Source: Burkholderiaceae bacterium (GTDB lineage: Bacteria > Pseudomonadota > Gammaproteobacteria > Burkholderiales > Burkholderiaceae_C). From it: a stretch of 64,000 nucleotides of DNA. The stretch is from contig SCQQ01000074.1 of the NCBI GenBank assembly GCA_004299095.1, forward strand, positions 62,001 to 126,000, read 5' to 3'. A model generated the notes under the pieces. That model was not told the DNA's origin. It saw nothing but the letters and a program-made list of their open reading frames with translations, and did not search any database. The position numbers were made by a program, and so were the translations under genes. This document shows positions 55,814 through 63,990 of this stretch, piece after piece; the stretch's first letter is position 1; the number at the start of each line of letters is the position of its first letter.

Positions 55814-56557
55814 TCAACCCGGGTTCGGCGCTGGCGCTGCATGGCGCGCATGCAGGCCGAAATAAGCGCGCTGCAGCGCCGCGTCGGCGTGCATTTCGGG
55901 CACCGTGCCGACAAAGCCGATGCGGCCGCCTTCCAGCGTGTAGACGCGCTCGGCGATGTCCAGGAACTTCACGTTCTGCGCGGCCACCAGGAGCGCGAGA
56001 CCCGCTTCACGCGAAGTCTGCAGCGCCCGGATCACGTCGTTCACGAACACCGGCGAGAGGCCCGCCGAAGGCTCGTCCATCACCAGCAGCCTGGGCTTGC
56101 TCGCGAGCGCCTTGGCCACGCCCAGAATCTTGCGCTGTCCGCCCGACAAACTGCCGCCCAGCGCCTTGCGCTTTTCCTGCAGCGTGGGAAAGCGCTGGTA
56201 CAACTCATCGACCTGGCGCTTGGATTCACTGCGCGGCAGGAACTGCGCGCCGATCAGCAAGTTGTCGTCCACGCTCATGTCCGGGAAGCAGCCCACTTCG
56301 GACATGTAGGCAATGCCGGCGCGCACGCGCTGGTCGGTGCGCCGGTGCGCAATCGACTCACCGGCAAAAACCAGATCGCCGTGCCACTGGCGAAGCAACC
56401 CCATCAGCGTGCGGATGAGCGTGGTCTTGCCGGCGCCGTTGGGTCCCACCAGCACCACGGTTTCGCGCTCGTGCACCGCCAAGTCGATGCCCCAGAGCGC
56501 CTGGATCTTGCCGTAGCCGGCGTCGAGGCCCTGGATGTGCAGCAGTTCAGTGGCCAT
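55814..56557 (-). CDS. livF: Branched-chain amino acid ABC transporter ATPase LivF
   Basis: Second ATPase of a HAAT-family importer. The 247-residue protein has Walker A VGPNGAGKTTLIRTLMGLL, the LivF-type VGCFPDMSVDDNLLIGA, the signature LSGGQRKILGVAKALAS and Walker B LLVMDEPSAGLSP. The H-loop region reads LLVAAQNVKFL, with Ala where the common VEQN has Glu, a small oddity. It is last in the livK-livH-livM-livG-livF order, overlapping livG by 11 bases. Amino-acid specificity cannot be read from sequence. Confidence 0.92.
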   Translation of the reverse strand: MATELLHIQGLDAGYGKIQALWGIDLAVHERETVVLVGPNGAGKTTLIRTLMGLLRQWHGDLVFAGESIAHRRTDQRVRAGIAYMSEVGCFPDMSVDDNLLIGAQFLPRSESKRQVDELYQRFPTLQEKRKALGGSLSGGQRKILGVAKALASKPRLLVMDEPSAGLSPVFVNDVIRALQTSREAGLALLVAAQNVKFLDIAERVYTLEGGRIGFVGTVPEMHADAALQRAYFGLHARHAAPAPNPG

Positions 56558-57302
56558 CGGCAGTGCCCAGGAAAACCTCGACCACTTGCGGGTCCTGCGC
56601 CGCCTCGGCGAGCAGCCCGGAAAAAATGTCCTTGCCGGCGCTCAGCACAATCAGGCGGTCCGTCACCTGATCGACGAAATCCATCAAGTGCTCGACCACC
56701 AGCAGCGCGAGGCCACTGCCAGCCAGTTGGCGCAAGCGGGTCGCGACTTGGCTCAGTTCCTCCGGGTTCAGGCCGGCACCGAGCTCGTCCACGCACAGCA
56801 GCTTGGGGCGCGTGGCGAGAGCCCGCGCGAGATCGAGCATCTTCTGCTGCGCGCTGGTGAGCTCCGCCGCCGAATGCTCGGCGCGCTGGTCGAGTTCAAG
56901 GAATTCCAGCAGCTCCTGCACGTCGGCGCGGCCCAGATCGGCACCGCCGTAGCGCGCCGCCACCTCGACGTTTTGCCGCACCGTGAGCGACTTGAACGGC
57001 TTGGGCACCTGGAACGTCCGGTTGACACCCAGCCGCGCCAGCTCGTCCGGCCGCTGCCGGCCGATGGCGTGGCCGCGGTATTCGATCTTCCCGCCATCTG
57101 GCCGGTACAGGCCCGTGACGACGTTGATGCAGGTCGTCTTGCCGGAGCCATTGGGGCCGATCAACCCCAGCACTTCGCCCGCGCGTACCGCGAGGTTCAC
57201 GTCCTTCAGCGCCTGGAAGCTGCCGAATTTCTTGGCCAGGTGCGAAATCACGAGGATGGGCTCGGCGCTCTGCGCGGCGGCAGCTTGCTGCACTTCAGAC
57301 AA
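56547..57302 (-). CDS. livG: Branched-chain amino acid ABC transporter ATPase LivG
   Basis: First ATPase of the importer. The 251-residue protein shows Walker A GLIGPNGSGKTTCINVVTGL, the LivG insert RLGVNRTFQVPKPFKSLTVR, and Walker B LLCVDELGAGLNPEE, where the usual LLLLDE is LCVDE. The signature is degenerate: ELTSAQQKMLDLARAL instead of LSGGQ, a change shared by some LivG subfamilies. It overlaps livM and livF by 8 and 11 bases, so the cluster is one operon. Confidence 0.92.
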   Translation of the reverse strand: MSEVQQAAAAQSAEPILVISHLAKKFGSFQALKDVNLAVRAGEVLGLIGPNGSGKTTCINVVTGLYRPDGGKIEYRGHAIGRQRPDELARLGVNRTFQVPKPFKSLTVRQNVEVAARYGGADLGRADVQELLEFLELDQRAEHSAAELTSAQQKMLDLARALATRPKLLCVDELGAGLNPEELSQVATRLRQLAGSGLALLVVEHLMDFVDQVTDRLIVLSAGKDIFSGLLAEAAQDPQVVEVFLGTADGH

Positions 57303-58215
57303 CGCGCACTCCCCAGCGCCGCAGCAGCGATGTGAGACCGTTGGGCAGAAACAGCACCAAGACCACGATCAGCAGGCCGAAAATCAACTGGAAGTATTGC
57401 GGCGTGGACACGCCGATGTAGTTGTACAGGCCGTACAGCAGCAGCACGCCCAGGATCGGGCCGATGACCGTGCCGACGCCGCCAAAGAGCGCAAACACCA
57501 GCGCGAAAATCGTGAAGTTGGTGCCGAACACGTTGTCGGGGAAAAAGACCGTCACGTACCACGCGAAATCGGCGCCGATCAGCCCGCCGATCAGCGCCGA
57601 CAGCAGCCAGGCGATGGTGCGCGCTCGGCCGATATTGATGCCGGCGGTGGCGGCGCTGATCGGGTCGTCGCGTACCGCCTGCAGCGCCAGGCCGAAGCGC
57701 GAATAGCGCAGGTACAGAACGATGGCGGTCGCCAACACCATGATGCCGATGGCGGCCGCGTAGCTCAAGGTCGGGTTGAACACGTTGGAAATCGACACGC
57801 CATAGGGCCCCTTGGTGAGATCGGTCAACGCCGGGTTGGACACGATCTGCTCGATCGCCAGCGCCGCCGCCAGGTTGGCGATGGCGAAGTAGGCACCCGA
57901 GAGGCGCAAGGTGGGCGTGAGGATGGCGCCGAAGCCGACGGATATCAGCGCCCCGATCGCCAGCGCCAGCGCCGGATCGGCGTTCAGATGCATCACCGCG
58001 ATGGCAAAGCCATACGCGCCGGCGCCGAAGAAGCCGACGTAACCGAACGGCAAATAGCCGGTGAAGCCGTAGAGCACGTTCACACCCTGCGCCAGCGTGA
58101 TGAAGACGATGAAATTGAACAGCAGCAGGTGGTTCTGGTAGCCCAGCGGCGCGAGCGCCGCCACGGCGATCAGCGGCAACAGGATCGCGATGGAATTGCA
58201 CATCGATTTAGACAT
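57295..58215 (-). CDS. livM: Branched-chain amino acid ABC transporter permease LivM
   Basis: One of the two permeases of the importer. The 306-residue protein has about nine hydrophobic helices. Typical segments are FITLAQGVNVLYGFTGYLPF, GFFGAGAYGFAIAVM, the coupling-helix motif LALQAVRDDPISAATAGINI and LFGGVGTVIGPILGVLLLYG. It overlaps livH by 8 bases and livG by 8 bases. Confidence 0.92.
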   Translation of the reverse strand: MSKSMCNSIAILLPLIAVAALAPLGYQNHLLLFNFIVFITLAQGVNVLYGFTGYLPFGYVGFFGAGAYGFAIAVMHLNADPALALAIGALISVGFGAILTPTLRLSGAYFAIANLAAALAIEQIVSNPALTDLTKGPYGVSISNVFNPTLSYAAAIGIMVLATAIVLYLRYSRFGLALQAVRDDPISAATAGINIGRARTIAWLLSALIGGLIGADFAWYVTVFFPDNVFGTNFTIFALVFALFGGVGTVIGPILGVLLLYGLYNYIGVSTPQYFQLIFGLLIVVLVLFLPNGLTSLLRRWGVRVV

Positions 58216-59083
58216 GGCGCACCGTCCGTCCGAGCAGGCCGCTGGGTCGCACCAGCAGAATCGCGATCAGCAGTACGTAGGGCAGCAAGCCCGACCAGGC
58301 GCTCAGATACGTCTGCATCACCATCAGCGCAACGCCGTAAATCAGGCCACCGAGCACGGTGCCAAGCGGACTGCCCAATGAACCGATGATGATGACGGTG
58401 AACGACACGACGGTGAGACTCACGCCGATCGCGGGCGTGACGCTGCCGAGCATCAACGGCGCAAAGACGCCGGCCACTGCCGCCACGCCGAGACCGATGC
58501 CGAACGCCAGGGCAGAGACGCGCGCCACGTTGATGCCGGCCGCCAGCGCCTCGTCGCGCTGCGACATGACGGCGCGCGTCAAGCGGCCGATGCGCGTGCG
58601 GTAGAGGTACAGGAATACCAGCGCGACCACGATCACGCTGCCGATTGCGCTGCCCAGCCAAGCGGCCGGGAAGGTGTTGTCGCCGATATGGAACGGGTGG
58701 CGACCGAACACGCTGCCCGGAATCGAGCGCGCGCTCGGGCCGACGACGATGGTGGTCACCGCCTCGATGAATTGCGACAGGCCGAAAAACAGGATGATGG
58801 AGAGCATCTCCGGATCGGCCGACTTGAGCAGGCGCGGCACCAGCGCGAAATACAGCGGGATACCAACGGCGATGAAGATGAACAGGCTGGCGATGGCCGC
58901 CCAGACCGGGTTGAGCTGGAACGCGCTATACAGGCCGATGGCCACCATCGCACCCAGCATGATGAAGTCGCCGTGCGCCAGGTTCACGATGCGCATCACG
59001 CCGAAGATCAGATTCAGGCCCAGCCCCACCAGGCCAAAGTAAAGGCCGAACAACAGTCCGGCCAGGATCGCATAAGTCAGCAT
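58208..59083 (-). CDS. livH: Branched-chain amino acid ABC transporter permease LivH
   Basis: Second permease of the importer. The 291-residue protein has about eight helices, starting LTYAILAGLLFGLYFGLVGL and continuing FGVMRIVNLAHGDFIMLGAM, a LivH hallmark. The coupling-helix region GRLTRAVMSQRDEALAAGIN and the end GSLGSPLGTVLGGLIYGVAL are also typical. First permease after the binding protein gene, from which it is separated by about 120 bases. Confidence 0.92.
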   Translation of the reverse strand: MLTYAILAGLLFGLYFGLVGLGLNLIFGVMRIVNLAHGDFIMLGAMVAIGLYSAFQLNPVWAAIASLFIFIAVGIPLYFALVPRLLKSADPEMLSIILFFGLSQFIEAVTTIVVGPSARSIPGSVFGRHPFHIGDNTFPAAWLGSAIGSVIVVALVFLYLYRTRIGRLTRAVMSQRDEALAAGINVARVSALAFGIGLGVAAVAGVFAPLMLGSVTPAIGVSLTVVSFTVIIIGSLGSPLGTVLGGLIYGVALMVMQTYLSAWSGLLPYVLLIAILLVRPSGLLGRTVRHV

Positions 59084-59205
59084 GCGTGCGCCACTTCTGG
59101 TGAGCTATTGCCCCCGCCCATCCGGTTCCACGTGTGTTGATCGCACAGTTTCCTCCCGTTCGGCGCCGAAGCTTCAGCGCCGAGGTGCCTCTTCATCACG
59201 TGCCT

Positions 59206-60465
59206 TTAGTTTTCCGGCGCCGGATACAGCGGTTTCGCGTTGGCTTGAGACGGCGGATAAACGACGGCGAATTTCAACTTGCCCTTGCCATCGGGCACCA
59301 GTTGCGCGAGCGGCATGACTTCGCCGATCTGCGCGCCTTCCTTGTTCAGCTCGAACGCGCCGCCCAGCGTCTTGAGCTTGCCCGACAAGCCGAATATCGC
59401 CTTGCGCAAATCGTCCTGGCTCATGCTGTCGGTTGCGGCGAGCGCGTTCTGGATCACCTGGCCGGTGGTGTAGCCCGCGGTGGAGTTGAAGCCGAACGCC
59501 ACTTTGGTGTCGGGGTAGGCCTTGTCCCACGCCGCCTTGAATTCCGGCAGCGTCATGCCCGAGTTCACCTTGTTTTCCATGACGGAAGGCGGCGCATACG
59601 TGTAGACGTATTGCATGCCGGAGGCGCCCACGGTTTTCATCAAATCGTCGAATTCCAGCCCCGGGTACATCGCAAACAGCCACTTGAAGTGCATACCCGA
59701 CGCCTCGAGATTGCGCAGGAACGCCGCATCGTTGTCGGGGTAGCCCAACTGCACCACCGCGTCCGGCTTGTGCGCGTTGATGTCGTTGATCAGCACCGTG
59801 TAGTTCGACGTGTTGGTGGGCACGCCCTGGTCATAAACGATGTCCAGCGGCGCTTTCGAATCCTTGATCATCTGGCGGAACGTCTTGGCCTGCGTACCGG
59901 TGAATTCGTTGGTCGCGTAAATGATCGCCAGGCGCTTGATGCCGAGCTTCTGGCCTTCTTCCGTCAGGAACTTGGCGACGTCTTGCGGCCACACGGTGGA
60001 CAGCGGCGTCGAGGTGAGCACGATATACGGATTGCCTGACGTGAAGAAACCACCGCCCGTGCCAGACTGGTCGATCAGCAGCATTTTGTGTTCGCGCGCG
60101 ATCGGCACCGCCATGGACGTCAGCACCGAGCCGCCATCGGCCACCAGGATGTCGACCTTGTCCTGCGTGATGAGCTGGTTGTAGAGCGTGGCCGCCGTGG
60201 CGGTGTCGCTCTGGTCATCGTAGGCAATCAGCTTGACCGGAATGCGCTTGCCGAAGGGCTTGACCATCACGCCGCCCTGCGCGTTTTCTTGCGCAGCCCA
60301 GATCTTCAACCCCATGTAATCCGGCATGCCGAGCGCCGCAAACGGCCCGGACGATGCGTACAAGGTGCCGATCCTGATTTCCGCGGGCGCAGTCGCGGCC
60401 GTTGCGGTCGCGGAAAACGCGGCCAGTGCTGCCATAAAGAGGCAGGAAACAAGTTTTCGCCACAT
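59206..60465 (-). CDS. livK: ABC transporter periplasmic amino-acid-binding protein
   Basis: Periplasmic solute-binding protein that delivers ligand to the LivHMGF complex. The 419-residue precursor has a signal peptide (core LVSCLFMAALAAFSATATA) and begins its mature part AEIRIGTLYASSGPFAALG, the start of type I periplasmic-binding folds. Further features are AQENAQGGVMVKPFGKRIPV, ADGGSVLTSMAVPIAREHKM and NEFTGTQAKTF. AAGGGGAC precedes the ATG. Ligand is unknown; such proteins bind branched amino acids, but also aromatics or amides in betaproteobacteria. It leads the operon, and an AraC gene lies about 190 bases upstream on the same strand. Confidence 0.88.
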   Translation of the reverse strand: MWRKLVSCLFMAALAAFSATATAATAPAEIRIGTLYASSGPFAALGMPDYMGLKIWAAQENAQGGVMVKPFGKRIPVKLIAYDDQSDTATAATLYNQLITQDKVDILVADGGSVLTSMAVPIAREHKMLLIDQSGTGGGFFTSGNPYIVLTSTPLSTVWPQDVAKFLTEEGQKLGIKRLAIIYATNEFTGTQAKTFRQMIKDSKAPLDIVYDQGVPTNTSNYTVLINDINAHKPDAVVQLGYPDNDAAFLRNLEASGMHFKWLFAMYPGLEFDDLMKTVGASGMQYVYTYAPPSVMENKVNSGMTLPEFKAAWDKAYPDTKVAFGFNSTAGYTTGQVIQNALAATDSMSQDDLRKAIFGLSGKLKTLGGAFELNKEGAQIGEVMPLAQLVPDGKGKLKFAVVYPPSQANAKPLYPAPEN

Positions 60466-60654: not shown

Positions 60655-61638
60655 TCACCGCGAATCCACGGATCTCTGGGCGCCGCCCGCGGCGTTCTTG
60701 CGCCACGCGGCCGGCGGCATGTTGAAGTCACGCCTGAAGGCGTGCTGGAACGCGGCCGGTGAGCCATAGCCGACTTCATCGGCGATCGCCGCGATGCTTT
60801 TGTGGCTGTCGGTGAGCTGGCGTGCCGCCAGCGACATGCGCAGGCGCGTCAGGTAGTGCATAGGCGTTTCGCCCAGCATTTGGGCAAAACGCGCCGCGAT
60901 CACGGAGCGCGAGCTGGCGGCGACGGCGGCCAGGTCGCCCACGCTCCAGTGTCGCGCCGGTTGCGCGTGCAGCGCCTGCAACGCGCGCCCGATCGCCGGA
61001 TCGCGCAGCCCGGCTAGCCAACCCGAGGCGTCCTGCGGCAGGCCCCGCATGTAGAGCCGCACCGCGCCGAGGTAGAGCAGTTCCGCCACGTGCCCACGCA
61101 GGGCCGCGGCCCCGGGACTGTCGTCCAGCGCATTGGCAATCGCGTAGGGCAACAGGGTCTGCATGCGCTCGCCCAAGTCCACTTGGAAAAGCGCGGGCAG
61201 CGACGCGCACAGGGGATCGAAGGCGCGGCGGTCGCAACCCAGAAAGCCACATAGCAACCGCGTGGTACCGCCGTCGCCGAGATCGAAGCGGACACGCCGC
61301 ACGTCTTGTAGAGAACACTCGCCCAGAACGGTTTCGAACGGCACCGCCTTTCGACCAGGACGATCGCAGAGTTCGTGCGGCTGGTTGTGCGTGATGACGA
61401 CCGCGTGCCCCATGGGCACGGCCGTCCAGTCGGCCGAAGGGAAACGGACCCAGCATTCGCCTTCGAGCACGACGTGAAACGTGATCACGTTGGTGGTTCC
61501 AGGCCGCAACAACGGCGCGAACTTCTCGATCGTCGGGTTGCTCGCGATGCTCCACCCGCCGGTGATGTCCAGCTCGAAAATCAGGGCGCCCGTCAGGTGC
61601 ACGAGATCCAGGACATCCGATAGCAGGTCGTTGCTCAC
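60655..61638 (-). CDS. AraC family transcriptional regulator
   Basis: A 327-residue regulator. The GTG at 61638, eight bases after a GGAG ribosome site, is preferred to a GTG five codons upstream. N-terminal cupin-like sensor (ALIFELDITGGWSI, then HVVLEGECWVRF and AVVITHNQPHELCDRPG), then a long helical linker. The C-terminal AraC domain has two helix-turn-helix units: WSVGDLAAVAASSRSVIAAR and KSIAAIADEVGYGSPAAFQH. It is divergent from the DUF4242 gene and on the same strand as the ABC operon, so it could regulate either or both; neither link is proven. Cupin-type AraC members often sense small aromatics or metabolites. Confidence 0.9.
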   Translation of the reverse strand: MSNDLLSDVLDLVHLTGALIFELDITGGWSIASNPTIEKFAPLLRPGTTNVITFHVVLEGECWVRFPSADWTAVPMGHAVVITHNQPHELCDRPGRKAVPFETVLGECSLQDVRRVRFDLGDGGTTRLLCGFLGCDRRAFDPLCASLPALFQVDLGERMQTLLPYAIANALDDSPGAAALRGHVAELLYLGAVRLYMRGLPQDASGWLAGLRDPAIGRALQALHAQPARHWSVGDLAAVAASSRSVIAARFAQMLGETPMHYLTRLRMSLAARQLTDSHKSIAAIADEVGYGSPAAFQHAFRRDFNMPPAAWRKNAAGGAQRSVDSR

Positions 61639-61772
61639 GCGTCGTCTCCGCACGATTTCGGCGTTTCCCGCATATACGGCGAAGTTTCGATCATTGTCAA
61701 GCGCGCCGCCGAGGCGGAGAGTTCAGCTTGCGGCATCGCCGTCTGTGGCTGCCGATACGGGGAGAGACCCAC

Positions 61773-62045
61773 ATGCCGAAATTCATCATCGAACGCGAGG
61801 CCCCAGGAGTTGGGAGCCTGTCCCTTCAGGAGTTGCAAGACATGTCACGCAAGTCCTGCGACGTCATTCGAGAAATGGGACCGCAGATTCAATGGGTGCA
61901 CAGCTACCTGACGGACGACAAGCTCTACTGCGTGTACATCGCGCCAGACGAAGCAGCCGTGCGCCAACACGCAGAGAAAGGTGGCTTTCCAGTGAACAAA
62001 ATCTCGCGCGTCAAAACGCTGATTGACCCCGCCTTGGTTGCCTGA
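61773..62045 (+). CDS. DUF4242 family protein (SCO4226-like)
   Basis: A 90-residue cytosolic protein. The ATG follows GGGGAGAG and gives MPKFIIEREAPGVGSLSLQE. The family pattern DMSRKSCDVIREMGPQIQWV, then HSYLTDDKLYCVYIAPDEAA and FPVNKISRVKTLIDP matches DUF4242 closely; the Streptomyces homolog SCO4226 binds nickel. Metal binding here would rest on the His in VHSYL and the Cys in YCVY and is inferred. It is the first gene facing the AraC regulator, followed by a rhodanese after about 130 bases. Confidence 0.88.
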   Translation: MPKFIIEREAPGVGSLSLQELQDMSRKSCDVIREMGPQIQWVHSYLTDDKLYCVYIAPDEAAVRQHAEKGGFPVNKISRVKTLIDPALVA

Positions 62046-62056
62046 TCGCAGGCCCC

Positions 62057-62083
62057 GCCGCCCGCCGGCTCTGCGCGGGCGGC
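62057..62083. repeat. 9-bp perfect inverted repeat
   Basis: GCCGCCCGC and GCGGGCGGC around a 9-base loop, 11 bases after the DUF4242 stop. No T-run follows, so it may be a pause or partial terminator separating DUF4242 from the rhodanese gene, or chance in GC-rich DNA. Confidence 0.4.
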
Positions 62084-62176
62084 ACAACCGCTGCGCGAAC
62101 CTGCCCAGGCATGCTTGAACGCGTTTGTTGCGCCGGAGAGCAGAACCCATCCACCACACAGAACAGGAGTTGAATC

Positions 62177-62554
62177 ATGACAACCGTAGCGCAACTGGTT
62201 CAAGCCGCGAAGAGCCAGATCGACAACCTCACGCCGGATCAGGTCGAAGCGGAAATGGCCGCAGCCGGCATCACGCTGGTCGATGTTCGGGACGCGCCGG
62301 AGTTGGCTGACGGCACCATTCGAGGCGCCGTGCATGCTTCCCGCGGAATGCTGGAGTTCTACGCGGATCCCGCGAGCCCCTATCACAAGGCCGAACTCGC
62401 ACCGCAGAACCGCGTGATTCTGTATTGCGCCTCGGGCGGGCGCTCCGCGCTGGCCGCGCAGTCATTGCGTGAGCTTGGCTATGTCAACGTCGCGCACCTC
62501 GACGGCGGGTTCAAGTCCTGGAAGGCTGCGGGCAAACCCTTCCTGAGTCAGTAA
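62177..62554 (+). CDS. Rhodanese domain protein
   Basis: A single-domain rhodanese of 125 residues, which typically carries a persulfide on its catalytic Cys for sulfur transfer. Cys84 lies in ILYCASGGRSALAAQ, the active-site loop. The N-terminal half begins LTPDQVEAEMAAAGITLVDV and has DVRDAPELADGTIRGAVHA. No signal peptide is seen, so it is cytosolic. Donor and acceptor are unknown. The ATG follows ACAGGAG. It is the second gene of the right-end cluster and 45 bases before DUF1326. Confidence 0.93.
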   Translation: MTTVAQLVQAAKSQIDNLTPDQVEAEMAAAGITLVDVRDAPELADGTIRGAVHASRGMLEFYADPASPYHKAELAPQNRVILYCASGGRSALAAQSLRELGYVNVAHLDGGFKSWKAAGKPFLSQ

Positions 62555-62599
62555 CGTCCAGGCGTCTGATCAACCCCAAACACACAAGGAGACACAATC

Positions 62600-63202
62600 A
62601 TGGCCGAGTGGAAATTGGTTGGAACGTATTTCGAAACCTGCAACTGCGAAGCCGCATGCCCATGCGTCTTCCTCAGTCCGCCAACGCAGGGCCACTGCAC
62701 GGTGCTGGTGGCCTGGCATATCGAGCGCGGCCGCTACGGCGACGTGGCACTGGACGGGCTGAACGTGGCGCTTGCCGTGCACGCGCCCGGGAACATGACC
62801 CAGACCACGTGGACGGCGGCGGCCTATCTGGACGACAAAGCCGACGGCGCGCAGGACGCGGCGCTGCACGCCATCTTCGGCGGCAAGGCGGGCGGCCACC
62901 CTGCGATGCTGGCTTCCTTCATCGGCAAGATGCTGGGCGCAAAAAGCGTGCCCATGCGTTTTCGCAGCGAGGGCAAACGCAGCAGTCTCACGATTCCGGG
63001 AATCACCGATGCCGAGATCGAACTGCTCGAAGGCCAGGGCGGCGCGCCGATCACGATCACCGGCCATCCGCTGGCGATTGCTCCCGGCGAACCGGCAAAG
63101 GTGGCGCGCTCGACGCATTTCGGCTTCAGCGATTACGACTGGCAATGGGAGCTCTCGGGGCGCACTGGCTTCGTCAGCCCTTTCACCTACGCCTCGGGCT
63201 GA
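62600..63202 (+). CDS. DUF1326 domain protein with Cys-rich N terminus
   Basis: A 200-residue cytosolic protein of the DUF1326 family, whose function is not known. Its N terminus carries a compact Cys cluster, FETCNCEAACPCVF (Cys14, 16, 20 and 22), and another Cys at 33, a candidate metal or Fe-S site. The central part (DGLNVALAVHAPGNMTQTTW) and the C-terminal HFGFSDYDWQWELSGRTGF are also family-typical. AAGGAG precedes the ATG. It is directly followed, after 5 bases, by DUF2182, and the two families are commonly adjacent. Confidence 0.88.
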   Translation: MAEWKLVGTYFETCNCEAACPCVFLSPPTQGHCTVLVAWHIERGRYGDVALDGLNVALAVHAPGNMTQTTWTAAAYLDDKADGAQDAALHAIFGGKAGGHPAMLASFIGKMLGAKSVPMRFRSEGKRSSLTIPGITDAEIELLEGQGGAPITITGHPLAIAPGEPAKVARSTHFGFSDYDWQWELSGRTGFVSPFTYASG

Positions 63203-63207
63203 TCGCC

Positions 63208-63990
63208 ATGGCCACGTCGGCGCAACTGCGGCGCGACCGCGCGATCCTGCTGGGAGGACTCGCGTGCGTCAGCGCGACCGGCTGGTTCGTGCTGGCGCAC
63301 ATGAGCGCTGTCTCGGCCGGGCTGCATCCCGTCGCCATGTCCGGAATGCTGATGACGGACCCGACGAATGCACCGAATCCCGGCTACGGCATGGCGCTGG
63401 CGATGTGGGCGGCTATGACGGTGGCGATGATGGCGCCAGCCACCGCGCCGGGTTTGTCGGCGTACCTCGTACTGGCGCACCGACGCCATCCGGATCGCAG
63501 CGCCATGCTTGCCGCCGCCGGCTTCCTCGCGGGCTACTTCGGGGCTTGGCTGGGCTACGCGGCACTTGCCGCCGCAGCGCAATCGGCGCTCGCGACGGCC
63601 ATGCGGCTGACCCCGATAGGTGCCCTCGCCAGCCCCTATCTCGCTGCCGGCGTCCTGATCGCGGCGGGCGTCTATCAACTCACGCCGCTGAAACGGGTTT
63701 GCGTCACGCGCTGCCGCAGCCCGTTGCTGCAGCTCATGGGCATGTGGCGCGATGGCGGCTCCGGCGCGCTGCGGCTCGGCGTCGGCCACGGCAGTTGGTG
63801 CGTGGTGTGCTGCTGGGCGCTCATGGCCCTGATGTTCGTGGTAGGCGTCATGAATCTGTTCTGGATGGCAGTCATCGCGATATTCATCCTGGCCGAAAGG
63901 CTCGCGCCAGCACGCTGGCGCATTGACTGCATCGCCGGAGTCCTGCTGATCGGCGTCGGCGCATGGGTGGCGCTGGCCGTGGCAGGGTAG
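63208..63990 (+). CDS. DUF2182 family membrane protein (putative metal-binding)
   Basis: A 260-residue inner-membrane protein with about seven helices. The ATG at 63208 gives MATSAQLRRDRAILLGG, and the family hallmarks are present: MWAAMTVAMMAPATAP at about 66-81, a loop ending YQLTPLKRVCVTRCRSPLLQ, and the cysteine-rich GSWCVVCCWALMALMFVVG. The Met/Cys-rich pattern has led to predictions of metal handling, including copper, for DUF2182, but no activity is established. It is the last gene of the cluster and stops 10 bases before the window ends; anything further is not visible. Confidence 0.88.
   Translation: MATSAQLRRDRAILLGGLACVSATGWFVLAHMSAVSAGLHPVAMSGMLMTDPTNAPNPGYGMALAMWAAMTVAMMAPATAPGLSAYLVLAHRRHPDRSAMLAAAGFLAGYFGAWLGYAALAAAAQSALATAMRLTPIGALASPYLAAGVLIAAGVYQLTPLKRVCVTRCRSPLLQLMGMWRDGGSGALRLGVGHGSWCVVCCWALMALMFVVGVMNLFWMAVIAIFILAERLAPARWRIDCIAGVLLIGVGAWVALAVAG

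Follow-up and report, generated by a model that had tools for sequence, protein, structure and literature searches.

Four small genes in a row, facing a regulator of the AraC family, raise the question of whether a DUF4242 protein, a rhodanese, a DUF1326 protein and a DUF2182 protein belong to one module for the handling of metal or sulfur, as the initial annotation of this DNA proposed. The genes lie in a 64,000-nucleotide stretch of the 3.14 Mb genome of a Burkholderiaceae bacterium (assembly GCA_004299095.1, contig SCQQ01000074.1, positions 62,001 to 126,000), which at its full length is called the window here. The explanation that we favour, and hold tentatively, is an inducible locus for a thiophilic metal, most likely Cu(I), and for the thiol and sulfane-sulfur chemistry that accompanies it; we infer both the metal and the transcript. 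The best-supported reading assigns copper to DUF1326 and its DUF2182 neighbour, now named PpoB2, and sulfur or thiol chemistry to DUF4242 and the rhodanese. The cluster looks like a joining of two units, which elsewhere resemble alternative targets of the same regulator families, and not like a conserved four-protein machine; the full four-gene row is rare, having been seen only in the window.

The five genes that the initial annotation had described are all in place, each above its Pfam cut-off, and the features of the locus are as follows.

60655..61653, minus strand: AraC-family one-component regulator with an N-terminal Cupin_6 domain (Pfam Cupin_6 111.5 bits, 5.2e-32; HTH_18 73 bits, 2.4e-20)
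61654..61772, no strand: divergent intergenic region of 119 bp, the presumed site of both promoters (sequence)
61773..62045, plus strand: DUF4242 / SCO4226-like protein of 90 amino acids (PF14026 90.8 bits, cut-off 28.5, 6.5e-26)
62046..62176, no strand: gap of 131 bp after DUF4242, with a GC-rich hairpin that has no T run (sequence and folding)
62177..62554, plus strand: single-domain rhodanese with an active-site-type loop, CASGGRS (PF00581 81.3 bits, cut-off 22.2, 7.7e-23; solved rhodanese relatives)
62600..63202, plus strand: DUF1326 protein, a predicted acetoacetate-decarboxylase-like barrel with CNCEAACPC...C33 (Pfam 192 bits)
63208..63990, plus strand: PpoB2 (old DUF2182, COG5486), a helical membrane protein (PF09948 194.1 bits, cut-off 28.7)
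59206..60465, minus strand: Peripla_BP_6 substrate-binding protein of a branched-chain-type ATP-binding cassette (ABC) transporter (Pfam)

A proposed copper role for the DUF1326-PpoB2 pair

The common adjacency of DUF1326 and DUF2182, which the initial annotation had asserted, is borne out clearly beyond chance. Relatives of DUF1326 (34-72% identity in the best-matching segment) were located in 60 genome loci. PpoB2 follows in 51 of these, and of the nine exceptions four or more are truncated by the end of the contig. Two further samples, of 250 genomes from the family and 397 from the phylum, include many drafts, so that a contig end can hide a neighbour. Fifteen of the 250 family genomes carry DUF1326, the window's own included, and PpoB2 adjoins it in 13 of the 14 others. 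The window's own genome holds a second, divergent pair in reversed order (L004, 1325-4452, on G000:C21), arranged as OsmC - PpoB2 - DUF1326 - NAD-binding oxidoreductase. Plasmid records with a DUF1326 match number 121, all of them under 60% identity.

The further claim that no member of the row has a firm biochemical role overlooks PpoB2. Pfam now lists PF09948, formerly DUF2182, as "PpoB2, Copper chaperone", and PpoB2 of Marinomonas mediterranea is described in the published account (PMC2855505) as involved in the transfer of copper to a tyrosinase with which it shares an operon. The window protein has a Met-rich motif, MWAAMTVAMMAP, and a cysteine-rich motif, HGSWCVVCCW, and the residues M74, M75, C169, C198, C201, C202, M206, M215 and E230 are invariant across 42 PpoB2 sequences, the window's included. 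Its model, with a predicted local distance difference test (pLDDT) score of 89.1, consists of about seven long helices; comparison with the PDB gave no convincing match (best Foldseek E 0.69; best VIA-align Z 6.8), which implies neither a new nor a known fold. Such a protein may move or present Cu(I) within the membrane by way of a ladder of Met and Cys residues.

The cysteine motif of DUF1326 is CNCEAACPC, as had been claimed, and C14, C16, C20, C22, C33 and H40 are invariant in an alignment of 42 DUF1326 sequences that includes the window's. In a wider set, 84 of 94 proteins have the strict pattern, in which a fifth cysteine comes 9-15 residues after CxCx3CxC. Nine of the ten misses were inspected, L165 being left out; in eight of them CxCx3CxC is retained and the spacer is longer, and the frame of L118 starts past the motif. 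The AlphaFold2 model (pLDDT 90.2; predicted template-modelling score 0.88), in which the cysteine loop is less confident (blocks 11-30 at 76 and 60), is predicted to be an acetoacetate-decarboxylase-like barrel: VIA-align places it on 4jmd_B with Z 11.8 and a root-mean-square deviation (rmsd) of 3.8 A over 159 aligned residues, and Foldseek matches it to 4jmd_A with E 2.1e-06, but with TM-scores of 0.44/0.35 and an rmsd of 11 A. Sequence search found no solved relative. Catalysis by acetoacetate decarboxylase uses a Schiff-base lysine, and no lysine occurs in the invariant or nearly invariant columns of the 42 sequences; a role as a decarboxylase was rejected for lack of an invariant lysine. 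A signal peptide is not apparent by eye, and the protein would hold Cu(I) on the cytoplasmic side, at a thiolate site formed by CxCx3CxC...C, as the partner of PpoB2. The literature search returned no paper naming DUF1326 or DUF2182, and the identifiers PF07040, PF09948, COG5486 and COG5588 retrieved only PMC2855505.

A different use of the same cysteines had been suggested, in which persulfide from the rhodanese builds an Fe-S or sulfide-bridged cluster on DUF1326, with metal supplied by DUF2182. Such loading would fit the five invariant cysteines and the position of the rhodanese directly upstream of DUF1326, but no rhodanese of the window type stands beside DUF1326 in the 60 loci, nor within 10 kb of it among the phylum matches listed. 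Among the plasmid records inspected, that of Microvirga VF16 has a rhodanese relative 1.5 kb from DUF1326, with a MerR gene and a transposase between them. We found nothing in support of a persulfide-loaded cluster and consider it very improbable. Six plasmid locations of the rhodanese were inspected: two in ArsR-YeeE-TauE-MBL-fold clusters, three among other genes and one unannotated. A plasmid location of DUF1326 that was inspected likewise carries no annotation.

Many of the 60 loci come from methanotrophs and ammonia oxidisers, in a locus scan that is biased by pattern. A Nitrosomonadaceae-like family, whose name is inferred, carries DUF1326 in 27 of 100 genomes, against 48 of 397 in the phylum sample, so the enrichment is modest. 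A cassette of DUF938, a short-chain dehydrogenase, DUF1326 and PpoB2 recurs in L016-L056 and also in L157 and L169; 40 loci have the dehydrogenase cluster and 38 the DUF938 cluster, for the most part in methanotrophs and ammonia oxidisers.

Sulfur and thiol genes and shared regulators around DUF4242

The surroundings of DUF4242 were examined in 28 loci, the closest subgroup, picked by eye from 61, with a sulfur/thiol class that was defined after looking. Genes of this class stand beside DUF4242 in 7 of the 28: rhodanese in L120 and L193 (the latter more distant in sequence), DsrE in L201, SoxY-SoxZ in L127, and OsmC in L147, L189 and L194. The SoxY-SoxZ gene (L127, 1764-2558) is a fusion that directly adjoins DUF4242. 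OsmC also adjoins the second PpoB2-DUF1326 pair of the window's genome. Searches with the window rhodanese and the genome's own OsmC gave five matches within the 192 kb of the 61 DUF4242 loci and not one within the 801 kb of 74 long DUF1326 loci (binomial p 2.7e-4); both queries come from the window genome and not from DUF4242 loci, and two of the five matches (L189, L194) belong to one genus. A further rhodanese match, on the DUF1326-holding plasmid locus L149, was left out of the count because that locus was fetched through that rhodanese. It may be that the rhodanese and DUF4242 balance sulfane sulfur or thiols under the same signal that would call up the copper proteins.

These neighbours also suit an alternative in which thiol, reactive-sulfur or electrophile stress is primary and metal secondary, with the AraC protein sensing an oxidant or a sulfur species, the rhodanese and DUF4242 acting on sulfane sulfur, and DUF1326-PpoB2 moving reducing equivalents or sulfur and not copper. 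The OsmC, rhodanese, DsrE and SoxYZ genes adjoining DUF4242 point this way, as do the OsmC and NAD-binding oxidoreductase genes flanking the second PpoB2-DUF1326 pair; among NCBIfam models the AraC protein scores highest against RclR, although well short of its cut-off. Against this, the sole PpoB2 with an assigned role is a copper protein, and the invariant Met residues of the family would suit Cu(I) better than sulfur chemistry. We judge this alternative rather unlikely. The RclR score itself (equivalog, 100.3 bits against a cut-off of 400) is too low for membership, and orthology to this reactive-chlorine regulator was rejected.

In the favoured explanation, the AraC protein with its Cupin_6 domain would sense an effector and switch on the genes of the plus strand. 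AraC proteins with a Cupin_6 domain occur at DUF4242 in 4 of the 28 selected loci, directly divergent from it in L193 and L201; in L189 and L194, which are of one genus, an OsmC gene on the AraC strand lies between the two. The substrate-binding gene on the AraC strand, 189 bp beyond AraC, is an alternative target, and it could be that the regulator chiefly controls this branched-chain-type ABC transporter while the four plus-strand genes are incidental. The short same-strand spacing speaks for such control; the Cupin_6 AraC relatives at DUF4242 in the four other loci, two of them from one genus, speak against it, as do the wider stretches listed for those loci, in which no such transporter was recognised by eye beside AraC. 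Control of this kind is graded as unlikely, and more so than the stress alternative. The transporter genes that adjoin AraC occupy 56547-60465 of the window on the minus strand (ATPase and permeases from reading of the sequence, substrate-binding protein from Pfam). In L212 a substrate-binding gene of another type lies beyond the rhodanese.

Partners common to both halves of the row were sought with profiles made only from DUF4242-adjacent genes, run over 1.2 Mb around DUF1326 and DUF4242 that was partly fetched twice. Relatives of the winged helix-turn-helix (wHTH) regulators lie near DUF1326 in seven loci, at 61-186 bp in six and at 2.1 kb in one; three loci have a TetR relative no more than 34 bp from DUF1326, and a fourth has one 13 bp from PpoB2; and relatives of a TPR protein lie about 0.65 kb from DUF1326 in two loci, in the scanned one of which, L164, Pfam names no family. 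DUF3422 adjoins DUF4242 in L190, and in three loci of Nitrosomonas type it comes after PpoB2; the family name is from Pfam in L022 and L190. The order TetR - DUF4242 - TPR protein recurs in L122, L123, L124, L126 and L128, all of one genus of the Nitrosomonadaceae-like family. Most of the shared-partner links rest on few loci.

A UbiE-like methyltransferase looks like a hub among these partners. It lies 226 bp from DUF1326 in L055 (E 3e-118; two weak matches are 5 kb off), where it is 60% identical to the methyltransferase at DUF4242 in L192. Twelve close copies (at least 60%) were found in 74 genomes; three adjoin DUF4242, the locus of the query being one of them, and a single genus accounts for two of these three. 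Seven of the nine others were inspected (L236, L239-L244); in six of them the methyltransferase is divergent from a wHTH-type regulator, and five of the six belong to genus g355. Those five regulators of g355 have 68-72% identity, over 357-448 residues, with the regulator that faces DUF1326 in L006. In genome G114, the regulators that face DUF4242 (L147) and the methyltransferase have 64% identity with each other over 453 residues. These identities are the strongest single items suggesting that the halves are linked. In 71 DUF1326 loci, 35 open reading frames match DUF4242-adjacent frames; 19 of them are close to DUF1326, in a zone that makes up 26% of the bases (binomial p 2.7e-4). Among the 35 are members of generic families, frames from loci related to one another and an antisense artefact.

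Recurrence of the row and the case for chance

Several results weigh against the favoured explanation. The distance between DUF4242 and DUF1326 is 10 kb or less in 0 of the 14 other carriers of the family sample, five of which have DUF4242 elsewhere, and in 0 of the 47 other carriers of the phylum sample; neither DUF4242 nor a rhodanese of the window type occurs in the 60 DUF1326 loci; and among the matches listed, the window's rhodanese is the only one less than 10 kb from either gene. The methyltransferase ties DUF1326 in through the single locus L055, with none of the 12 close copies from the 74 genomes adjoining it. When the matching frames are grouped by hand into families, about 8 are near and 10 far, which is only borderline, and the classes used in the neighbour-sharing comparison were picked after looking. 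A scan for the sigma-70 consensus found no promoter-like site in the divergent gap, and the tyrosinase family PF00264 has no match in the window's own genome, nor in any of 14 control genomes; it is also missing from the six window proteins that were scanned.

To these is added the outcome for nickel. SCO4226 of Streptomyces coelicolor is reported to bind nickel with low affinity and to be induced by it (PMC4186839; PDB 4oi3, 4oi6). The window DUF4242 protein belongs to the same Pfam family and matches it weakly by profile (E 0.0018), while a single-sequence search gave no match at 0.01. None of the seven SCO4226 ligands covered by that weak profile alignment, read by eye with the ligands as published, is kept: His12 corresponds to G14, His20 to Q22, His23 to S25, Glu38 to V42, Asp43 to T47, Glu74 to K76 and His76 to S78, with His3 and Ser46 outside the comparison. 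Nickel by homology to SCO4226 was rejected, since none of the seven checkable ligands survives, and the hint that the initial annotation took from this homolog is weak for the same reason.

The simplest alternative is that AraC-DUF4242, with or without the rhodanese, and DUF1326-PpoB2 are independent units that happen to stand side by side in this lineage. The counts of 0 of 14 and 0 of 47, and the lack, among the matches listed, of any rhodanese other than the window's near either family, speak for chance, and the 131-bp gap after DUF4242 agrees with it, as does the absence of a DUF4242 match from 27 of the 28 other genomes of the genus (2 of 29 have one, the window's own included). On the other side, the four genes share one strand, with no regulator between them and with gaps of only 45 bp between rhodanese and DUF1326 and 5 bp between DUF1326 and PpoB2, and partner families are common to both halves elsewhere. 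Chance juxtaposition is judged rather unlikely. The hairpin in the 131-bp gap was rejected as a terminator, because it has no T run and folds no better than shuffles (z -0.65; 51 of 200 shuffles equal or surpass it).

Across the 397 phylum genomes, DUF1326 is present in 48, DUF4242 in 44 and both in 18 (Fisher p 1.5e-7, with relatedness ignored); besides the window, the two come nearest to each other in G700, at 21 kb by visual comparison of coordinates. Relatives of the window rhodanese (E <= 1e-10) occur in 132 of the 397, and among the matches listed the rhodanese otherwise closest to DUF1326 is 15-19 kb away, again compared by eye. Another genome of the genus, G260, has a rhodanese of 81% identity on the upstream side of DUF4242, with no DUF1326 in the 13 kb read.

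A conserved DUF4242-rhodanese-DUF1326-PpoB2 module is rejected, there being no recurrence in the 60 loci or in the family and phylum samples, where draft contigs can hide cases; for the row of four, this is the outcome that the initial annotation had named as refuting its proposal, the lack of a co-occurrence across genomes that goes further than the DUF1326-DUF2182 pair. Its proposal of a metal- or sulfur-handling module fails as a fixed four-protein machine and gains indirectly from the copper-chaperone family of PpoB2, the invariant Cys, Met and His residues, the sulfur/thiol genes at DUF4242, and the shared regulators and methyltransferase. The idea of joined units that share regulator families and partners has fair indirect support.

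Two minor observations complete the locus. A defence system was considered and rejected, the five proteins having no PADLOC match, and cupin- and RelA/SpoT-like frames, named by eye from the sequence, lie past the end of the window.

Comparison with known systems

A broader and more speculative proposal, which we put forward with considerable doubt, is that DUF4242, DUF1326-PpoB2, the UbiE-like methyltransferase and OsmC/rhodanese/DsrE might be outputs that can stand in for one another in a single undescribed stress response, under the control of local one-component regulators (wHTH-TPR, BTAD, AraC/Cupin_6, TetR) in Proteobacteria that include methane and ammonia oxidisers. Its core would be a two-protein Cu(I) system, with PpoB2 as a membrane ladder of Met and Cys and the decarboxylase-like barrel of DUF1326 as a five-thiolate copper carrier, and the window would be a rare joining of two outputs. 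The regulator links point to which genes should respond together, and a predicted decarboxylase-type barrel that has no invariant lysine but an invariant five-cysteine site, beside a copper-chaperone family would give two widespread families a concrete, testable role.

The window shares with the DUF938 cassette of methanotrophs and nitrifiers the order of DUF1326 followed by PpoB2, and its DUF1326 is about 44-52% identical to theirs. The cassette differs upstream, where it has DUF938 and the short-chain dehydrogenase (one of each named by Pfam) and lacks DUF4242, a window-type rhodanese and a relative of the window's AraC protein. With the acetoacetate decarboxylase-like barrels, MppR and the Streptomyces bingchenggensis enzyme, DUF1326 shares its predicted fold at an identity of 9% to 4jmd_B and 16% to 4zbo_B, and it differs from them in having an invariant five-cysteine site and no invariant lysine. 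The neighbour of the window's PpoB2 is DUF1326, whereas the Marinomonas mediterranea protein shares an operon with its tyrosinase; the likeness between the two, drawn by family and not by the Marinomonas sequence, is that both belong to the same Pfam family, the window protein well above the cut-off and, like its namesake, a membrane protein with Met/Cys motifs.

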